From: Blastocatellia bacterium
Lineage (GTDB): Bacteria > Acidobacteriota > Blastocatellia > UBA7656 > JADIYM01
Assembly: GCA_021463145.1 (NCBI GenBank)
Contig: JAJTWZ010000005.1
Coordinates: 1-64,000 of the forward strand
DNA: 64,000 nt
Reading direction: 5' to 3'
Shown piece by piece: positions 25,061 through 33,660 of the stretch; position 1 is the first letter of the stretch; each line of letters opens with the position of its first letter. The notes beneath the pieces were generated by a model that did no database searches, was not told the origin of the DNA, and saw only the letters and a list, made by a program, of their open reading frames with translations. Position numbers and translations under genes: made by a program.

Positions 25061-25169
25061 GGCAGGCAGTCCCCGCCTTTAAACGGCCGATTCGCGGACC
25101 GCGTAGAGGTGGGGACCGCGCAGCGGTCGAGCCCGCGCAGCGGTCGAGCCCGCGCGGAGGCTGCCTGCC
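25061..25169. repeat. Structured intergenic repeat with REP-like core
   Basis: Outer inverted arms GGCAGGCAG (25061-25069) and CTGCCTGCC (25161-25169) enclose two tandem copies of the 17-mer CGCGCAGCGGTCGAGCC (25117-25133 and 25134-25150) and a partial third. The core ACCGCGCAGCGGTCG differs by one base from the REP-like palindrome at 32.5-33.4 kb. The rest of the gap 25036-25506 shows no gene. Confidence 0.6.
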
Positions 25170-32455: not shown

Positions 32456-32461
32456 ACTATA
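32456..32461 (-). promoter_or_regulatory. -10 box placing the UbiA-like start site at its ATG
   Basis: TATAGT on the minus strand (within TATATAGT) is followed by seven bases and the ATG. This supports a leaderless transcript and the chosen start. Confidence 0.45.
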
Positions 32462-32521
32462 TAGTTCCCCACGCCCGTGCGGCGCACCCCGTCGGACGAA
32501 ACGGGCAGCGTTTCGGATCCG

Positions 32522-32775
32522 CGACCGCGGAGCGGTCGATAAAATAGCCGTGGGTCGCGCGCGGGCGAGTGCAACGAGCCTACGCGCGCGACCCGCGGAA
32601 ACCCCGCCCTATCGCGCCGACCGCGGAGCGGTCGAATCCGCGACCGCGGAGCGGTCGGATCCGCGACCGCGGAGCGGTCGATGAAATAGCCGTGGGTCGC
32701 GCGCGGGCGAGCGCAGCGAGCAAGCGCGCGACCCGCGGAACCGCCCGCCGCGTAGTACCGACCGCGGAGCGGTCG
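32522..32775 (+). repeat. REP-like palindrome cluster, left side
   Basis: Five copies of CGACCGCGGAGCGGTCG (7-bp arms, 3-nt centre) at 32522-32538, 32618-32634, 32641-32657, 32664-32680 and 32759-32775. Copies one and four are each followed by ATAAAATAGCC or ATGAAATAGCC and a larger hairpin with 12-bp arms (GGGTCGCGCGCG / CGCGCGCGACCC). Confidence 0.9.
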
Positions 32776-32842
32776 CATTGCTCCCAGCTAAGACGCAACT
32801 TCTTCCGCGCTCAACTCGATAATGGGCCGGAGGGAGCAAGAC

Positions 32843-33295
32843 ATGGCACGAACACTCATCGAAATCTACACGCACATCGTCTTTTCGACGAAGGGGCGGG
32901 CAAACACTATTCACCTGGAGATCGAAGCTGAATTGCACCGCATTATTGCGGGTATCATCGCGAATCTCAATTCTCGGTGCCTCACCGTCAACGGCACCGA
33001 GAACCACGTTCACACACTCGTGTCGCTTGGAAAGACGACGGCCTTGAGCAACCTGGTTCGCGAGGTGAAAAAGGGATCGACAATCTGGCTCAAGCGCCAG
33101 GGTGCGGTCTCAAGGGCCTTCAACTGGCAGGATGGATACGGGGGGTTCTCTGTCGGGAAATCGGATCTGCTGGCTGTCAAAAAGTACATCGCTGACCAGA
33201 AGCAGCACCACCAGCGCATTTCCTACGAGGAGGAGTTCATTTCACTGCTCGAGGACAACGGCGTCGCCTACGACGCTCGATACCTTTGGGACTGA
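32843..33295 (+). CDS. tnpA: IS200/IS605-type Y1 (HUH) transposase
   Basis: A 150-residue single-domain Y1 transposase that cuts and joins single-stranded DNA at hairpins. The start is typical (IEIYTHIVFSTKGR), the HUH pair is in ENHVHTLVSL (residue ~61), and the catalytic tyrosine lies in the helix KKYIADQKQHHQR near residue 115. The family C-terminus (YDARYLWD) is intact, so the gene looks full length. The ATG at 32843 has GGAGGG upstream. No TnpB accessory gene accompanies it. The flanking REP-like palindromes are its probable substrates. Confidence 0.93.
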   Translation: MARTLIEIYTHIVFSTKGRANTIHLEIEAELHRIIAGIIANLNSRCLTVNGTENHVHTLVSLGKTTALSNLVREVKKGSTIWLKRQGAVSRAFNWQDGYGGFSVGKSDLLAVKKYIADQKQHHQRISYEEEFISLLEDNGVAYDARYLWD

Positions 33296-33300
33296 AGGTT

Positions 33301-33411
33301 CGACCGCTCCGCGGTCGGATCGATGTGGATGTGGGTTCCGCGGGTCGCGCCGTGGCTCGTTGCACTCGCCACGCGCGACCCACGGCTATTTCATCGACCG
33401 CTCCGCGGTCG
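33301..33411 (-). repeat. REP-like palindromes, right side, inverted
   Basis: Two copies of CGACCGCTCCGCGGTCG (33301-33317 and 33395-33411), the reverse complement of the left-side core, plus one composite unit with a hairpin (GGGTCGCGC / GCGCGACCC) and the GGCTATTTCAT link. The first copy begins six bases after the transposase stop codon. Confidence 0.9.
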
Positions 33412-33416
33412 CGGAT

Positions 33417-33660
33417 GCAGCATCGCCAGCCGCCTGCAGCATCGCCAGTCGCCTGCAACATCGCCAACCGTCGTCCGCAACATCGCCAGTGGCCTGCATC
33501 ATCGCCAACCGCCTGCCGCATCGCCAGCCGCCTGCAACATCACAAGCCGTCTGCAACATCGCCGGCCGTCGTCCGCCGTACCGCCGGCCGTCGTCCGCAG
33601 TACCGCCAACCGTCGTCCGCAATACCGCCAGCCAGCCGTCCGCAAAACCGCCAGCCGTCC
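33417..33660 (+). repeat. Tandem array of 12 units of 19/22 bp
   Basis: Twelve head-to-tail degenerate units, consensus GCAACATCGCCAGCCGCCT (19 bp), with a 22-bp variant ending GTCGTCC (units 3, 8, 9, 10) and one 23-bp unit (11). Units start at 33417, 33436, 33455, 33477, 33496, 33515, 33534, 33553, 33575, 33597, 33619 and 33642. There are no unique spacers, so it is not CRISPR. It directly follows the transposase-associated repeats. Confidence 0.9.

Follow-up and report, generated by a model that had tools for sequence, protein, structure and literature searches.

The window, by which we mean the whole 64,000-nt stretch of DNA analyzed here, is contig 119 of a soil-type bacterium of the Acidobacteriota whose 5.28-Mb genome is distributed over 173 contigs. 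Between positions 32522 and 33411, it carries two left modules with an extra palindrome between them, a transposase gene, and one inverted right module. The exact 17-mer CGACCGCGGAGCGGTCG, a perfect 7-bp stem (CGACCGC and GCGGTCG) with a 3-nt loop (GGA), is found seven times in this segment, starting at 32522, 32618, 32641, 32664, and 32759 on the plus strand and at 33301 and 33395 on the minus strand, exactly where a first-pass annotation of the sequence had placed five left and two reversed right copies. That annotation also delimited composite units of about 77 nt as inverted copies of each other. Their relationship was confirmed, with 92% identity between the left units over 76 nt and a right unit that is their inverse (48-nt arms, 96 to 98% identity), but the better unit is a module of 111 to 113 nt in which two terminal 17-mers enclose a longer hairpin. 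Each end module consists of a first palindrome (P1), a spacer of about 9 to 10 nt that terminates in ATAG, a long hairpin (CCGTGGGTCGCGC...GCGCGACCCGCGG), approximately 20 variable nt, and a second palindrome (P2).

Left module 1 (32522 to 32634, plus strand) comprises P1 at 32522 to 32538, the ATAG foot at 32544 to 32547, the long hairpin at 32548 to 32598, and P2 at 32618 to 32634. It is followed by the extra single 17-nt palindrome (32641 to 32657, plus strand) and by left module 2 (32664 to 32775, plus strand), with P1 at 32664 to 32680, ATAG at 32686 to 32689, the long hairpin at 32690 to 32738, and P2 at 32759 to 32775. The right module (33301 to 33411, minus strand) is arranged in reverse, with P2′ at 33301 to 33317, the long hairpin at 33338 to 33385, CTAT (corresponding to ATAG) at 33386 to 33389, and P1′ at 33395 to 33411. 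When folded as single-stranded DNA, the three modules (z of -4.3, -3.6, and -5.0, respectively) and one from the locus of the paralogous transposase all formed the three hairpins, with z values from -3.6 to -6.7. Judged by their loop, which is GGA in both, P1 and P2 of one module are direct repeats, and inversion occurs between modules; a REPIN, in contrast, is a unit of two inverted REPs. The module, with its third, longer hairpin between two direct palindromes, is therefore not a REPIN as first annotated. A degenerate 19-nt tandem array (TGCAGCATCGCCAGCCGCC) lies immediately to the right of the element, at 33416 to 33660.

The gene between the modules (32843 to 33295, plus strand) encodes an IS200-like Y1 transposase of 150 amino acids, or 157 if the alternative ATG at 32822 is used. 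The protein matched Pfam PF01797 (E value of 9e-24) and NCBIfam NF033573 (IS200/IS605; 62 bits, cutoff 55), as the first-pass annotation had proposed for the gene lying between the inverted composite palindromes. A profile built from its relatives matched the ISDra2 and IS608 TnpA structures (about 1e-12 to 8e-12), structure entry 2xm3 being that of ISDra2. The protein contains the motifs NHVH, WQ (WQDGY), and YIADQKQHH (Y---Q--HH) and a conserved C-terminal tail ending in RYLWD. Y---Q--HH is common to nearly all relatives, and the Y---NP motif of true RAYTs (class 2) is absent from the window protein. According to its motif, length, and C-terminal tail, the enzyme matches TnpA-Y1 subclass 1.2, defined by Y---Q--HH, WQ, a length of about 148 to 150 amino acids, and a conserved C-terminal tail (Quentin et al. 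2018; PMC6006769); the subclass has DH[IV]H where the window protein has NHVH.

A conserved end module at related loci

Related transposase genes were present in 73 of 98 genomes of the class and, phylum-wide, in 66 of 297 genomes at E values up to 1e-20. A scan of genome contigs found only two relatives. The match positions in the genome of L043, an Acidobacteria gp4 MAG, coincide with those in G064, which belongs to the window's class, and this places the window in the Acidobacteriota, probably in the Blastocatellia. The two flanks of one locus gave a median inverted-repeat match score of 71, compared to a mean of 25.7 for flanks taken from different loci. We then used a structural detector (P1, TAG, hairpin, and P2 with loose spacing) that was designed after the first 33 loci had been seen. 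Inward-facing modules were detected at 48 of the 72 related loci, some of which are duplicates or near-duplicates (L114 is the same as L040, and L108/L109 and L110/L112 are homologous), and on both sides at 30; among the loci added after the design of the detector, 25 of about 40 had a module. Modules pointed inward on 78 flanks and outward on 11, and the rate in dinucleotide shuffles was 0.31% per flank. The detector background was 3 of 952 windows of the own genome, and eight IS200-like controls from outside the group yielded a module on 1 of 16 flanks.

While module sequence varies among loci, spacing and the NTAG foot are constant. Over all 78 modules, the foot is ATAG in 45, GTAG in 17, and TTAG in 16, the distance between P1 and the hairpin is mostly 10 to 12 nt (peak at 11 nt), and that between the hairpin and P2 is mostly 19 to 24 nt (peak at 20 to 23 nt). 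Conservation ends at the outer edge of P1, with no conserved sequence or target motif beyond it at the related loci, and the median element length from P1 to P1 is 660 bp. The module also surrounds one Verrucomicrobiota gene (L044) and one Bacteroidota gene (L106); at another Bacteroidota gene (L105), none was detected. One third of the related loci had no detectable module and may carry degenerate stems or another variant. L031 and L034 have subclass-1.2-like genes of another sequence type, with palindromes in a different layout (GGCTCCGTTAGGAGCC, then TGTCTGTAG) that the detector missed.

The ends vary together with the enzyme. In a Mantel test of protein distance against end distance at 46 loci, which leaves the shared ancestry of gene and ends in the correlation, r was 0.39 for the hairpin, 0.47 for the foot plus hairpin, 0.32 for P1, and 0.43 for P2, and none of 2,000 permutations reached the observed r for any end part. 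Enzymes that each recognize their own ends would produce such covariation of hairpin and protein, to which common descent of the whole element contributes as well.

Dispersed copies and possible mobility

The 17-mer occurs in 306 exact copies genome-wide (162 on the plus strand and 144 on the minus strand), against 0 for a reversed-pattern control, and in 97 related genomes only 2 copies were found, both in one genome; chance can thus be excluded. This count bears out the dispersal proposed by the first-pass annotation; had the palindromes occurred nowhere else, the segment would have been only a single insertion sequence with hairpin ends. The annotation had relied on a variant at 25.1 kb, a candidate that we rejected: the degenerate intergenic tandem there (GACCGCGCAGCGGTCGAGCCCGCGC; GACCGCGCAGCGGTCGAGCCCGC at 25113 to 25160) resembles the palindrome but has no module, and so the support for dispersal comes from the genome-wide count. 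The foot and hairpin start, ATAGCCG[GT]GGGTC, had 163 exact occurrences (control, 0). Exact searches with the end sequences of two relatives gave few copies per genome; given these few palindromes in relatives tested with single exact patterns, the large expansion may be special to the window genome. The genome encodes only two intact transposases, which are 51% identical to each other, along with one C-terminal remnant.

The structure of the copies was examined in approximately 0.8 Mb of own-genome DNA, picked mostly for REP matches and short contigs. Two subfamilies were distinguished, G (palindrome CGACCGCGGAGCGGTCG, hairpin CCGTGGGTC) and A (palindrome TGACCGCGAAGCGGTCA, hairpin CCGGGGGTC). 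The outer ends of the window transposase are of the G type, the transposase on contig 128 has outer palindromes and hairpins of the A type with inner palindromes of the G type, and hybrid elements with one G and one A end are also present. In this sampled DNA, short cargos lie between inverted palindromes at inner distances of 71 (8 cases), 90/91 (11 cases), and 133/134 nt (7 cases), and solo modules and tandem arrays are found as well. At an inner distance of 122 nt, one element encloses 97 nt that match the transposase gene at its 3′ end (score of 122, compared to 26.9 ± 3.9 for shuffles), which clearly points to an internal-deletion derivative of a transposase-carrying element. The idea that short cargos are generally transposase remnants was discarded, as only the 122-nt one was clearly significant against shuffles; one copy of the 133/134-nt cargo reached 1 of 200 shuffles when compared with the transposase. 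Like MITEs, the nonautonomous copies (the 71-, 90/91-, and 134-nt cargo families and the 122-nt remnant) share the ends of the autonomous element, and the nonautonomous elements foreseen by the annotation are thus represented by cargo families and a transposase remnant between the same ends. Many own-genome contigs, e.g., L054 and L063, terminate within modules or palindromes. The assembly therefore appears to be broken by repeats, which may explain where the breaks fall, and the true copy number is probably higher.

Other repeats accompany the modules. An 80-nt repeat (TTCCCCACACGCCTGCGG...TTTCATAGCAG; also TTCCCCAC...TTTCATAGCAG) directly follows ATAG in several modules, and modules with and without it otherwise match, forming filled and unfilled pairs with a spacing of 175 versus 95 nt. 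Its sites include L054 at 13534, L064 at 5860, others, and the window itself, where ATAG and a copy of this second short repeat (TTCCCCAC..GCGGCGCACCCC..GAAACGGGCAGCG; 32461 to 32516, plus strand), present in many copies in own-genome contigs, abut the left side of the element. Since its left neighbor is usually ATAG or (A/C)AG, the 80-nt repeat seems to have inserted on the 3′ side of a short motif ending in AG. The genome also contains a second family of modules, recognizable by hairpin TAGCCCACGGCGCAAGCCGTGGG, with 57 copies at 2 or fewer mismatches (e.g., L066 203 to 225 and L207 1518 to 1540), often as inverted pairs about 136 nt apart. In another genus, an identical hairpin accompanies the transposase (L036), and no transposase matching this family was seen in the window genome.

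Presence or absence of related elements was compared between congeners of another genus (g11). Genome G036 has an element at C5:51090 that G043 lacks at the orthologous intergenic site, where the flanks are 90 to 92% identical, and in 13 other congeners the two flanks are contiguous, with no 634-nt insert between them. The G043 spacer also carries other intergenic changes, so that neither a base-exact junction nor a target duplication could be read from this site. A second trial with G036 elements found only a G032 site without the element, at 74 to 81% identity. In two other species (G349 and G314, loci L138 and L141), the same element with the same left flank is present in opposite orientations, and the right flanks match over about 17 to 19 nt before diverging, a pattern that could have arisen by recombination between the inverted ends. 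The description of the system as active or recently active is therefore plausible from its near-identical copies and from the presence and absence of a related element between congeners of another genus, but it is unproven in the window genome itself, for which the set of genomes contains no close relative.

Relation to known systems and a proposed reading

The preferred reading is that the window holds one gene-carrying copy of a family of mobile elements that end in tripartite palindromic modules and are predicted to be mobilized by a subclass-1.2 Y1 (HuH) transposase; we consider this account as a whole, with movement and cleavage deduced by analogy, to be probable. A classical RAYT/REPIN system, in which a domesticated single-copy TnpA-REP spreads pairs of REPs that are inverted and have GTAG as their foot, resembles it in the tetranucleotide directly 5′ of a hairpin, the hundreds of dispersed copies, and the inversion around the gene (PMC2817692, PMC3116915, PMC8266576), as well as in its few transposase copies. 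Among 15 aligned relatives, moreover, five matched NCBIfam REP_Tyr_transpos (best E value of 4e-7) and all 15 matched IS200. However, the window protein itself matched the IS200 family only and has the IS200-like Y---Q--HH in place of Y---NP, its foot is ATAG rather than the GT[AG]G of RAYT REPs (across the loci, 17 of the 78 modules have GTAG and others TTAG), and in each unit a third hairpin lies between the extra palindromes P1 and P2, which are 17-mers in direct orientation. The strict REP-associated tyrosine transposase of the first-pass annotation was thus abandoned, and such a system is unlikely here.

A conventional IS200/IS605 element that has hairpin ends and is copied as a unit would account for the curated family match, the closest solved structures (ISDra2 and IS608 TnpA), the Y1 HuH family with its catalytic motif, the hairpins near the ends, and the compact length of about 660 bp. 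Here, in contrast, the ends are symmetric, inverted, and 111 to 113 nt long, no tnpB was seen beside the window transposase gene, and instead of the multiple near-identical transposase copies of subclass 1.1, two divergent intact genes coexist with a large nonautonomous population of hundreds of ends without a transposase. This makes a plain insertion sequence quite improbable. Elements of subclass 1.1 also have strand-specific asymmetric ends and a TTAC-like target; the ends here are symmetric in sequence and no target motif lies outside P1, but they may still be cleaved in a strand-specific manner. The least probable of the alternatives, in our estimation, is that host palindromes (terminators or nucleoid or repair sites) were amplified by recombination or slippage and that the transposase merely inserted among them. 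The many solo modules and tandem arrays would suit such an origin, and the predicted stems could equally form in RNA, but dozens of genomes have modules of other sequences that likewise face the gene, and the ends covary in sequence with the enzyme.

In TIRtrons, known from Acidobacteria (K. versatilis), a Y1 gene is likewise framed by long terminal inverted repeats, which are partly self-complementary and belong to dispersed families whose members occur as dimers and in clusters (Di Nocera et al. 2013; PMC3733652). In the window element, too, long terminal inverted repeats flank a Y1 gene and are dispersed as a family. The 26 described TIRYTs belong to subclasses 2.1, 2.2, and 2.5 (class 2, Y---NP; PMC6006769), whereas the window enzyme lacks the class 2 NP motif, and a P1-NTAG-hairpin-P2 module of fixed spacing was not found in the text of PMC3733652. 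Subclass 1.2, on the other hand, was described as having low-copy, divergent genes without REPs, mostly in Cyanobacteria and Bacteroidetes (PMC6006769). The two divergent intact copies observed here conform to it, while the host is an acidobacterium and the gene is flanked by conserved palindromic modules dispersed in the genome; modules at 48 of 72 loci and 306 palindromes therefore contradict the absence of REPs, which is a descriptive and not a sequence-defining feature of the subclass. The automatic REP search of Quentin et al. was run on TnpA-REP-encoding genomes and required a GTAG or GTGG foot (PMC6006769), so ATAG and TTAG feet fall outside it. In the open-licence literature, nothing on these palindromes or on REPs in Acidobacteria was found beyond PMC3733652 and PMC6006769. 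In the strict sense, the system is thus neither a RAYT nor a REPIN; in its workings it resembles a REPtron or TIRtron accompanied by a MITE population, and it is best read as a REPtron/TIRtron-like family of a transposase subclass not previously linked to such repeats.

In the mechanism that we propose for this family, modeled on TnpA-REP and IS608 (PMC8266576), the transposase would bind the NTAG-hairpin on single-stranded DNA, probably of the lagging strand, the NTAG tetranucleotide 5′ of the hairpin would guide the choice of the cleavage site, and the catalytic tyrosine (Y115) would cleave and rejoin one single strand. P1 and P2 may be accessory or end-defining structures, and their fixed distance suggests that they contribute structurally to the complex. 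Acting in trans, the transposases could also mobilize solo modules and short-cargo elements as MITE-like passengers, so that only two transposase genes would serve about 300 palindromes. How both inverted ends are processed on one strand is left unexplained by this account, a problem shared with REPtrons.

On balance, we also favor, with less assurance, a broader view in which the P1-NTAG-hairpin-P2 module is a distinct kind of transposon end of subclass-1.2 enzymes throughout the Acidobacteriota (and at one Verrucomicrobiota and one Bacteroidota locus), enzyme and end coevolve, and the expansion into hundreds of passive copies in the window genome is the largest seen here. If true, REP-like mobile palindromes would extend to IS200-like enzymes outside the classical RAYTs, and a subclass listed without REPs would gain a conserved end structure. 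The dozens of natural enzyme-end pairs are a ready data set on hairpin recognition by Y1 transposases.
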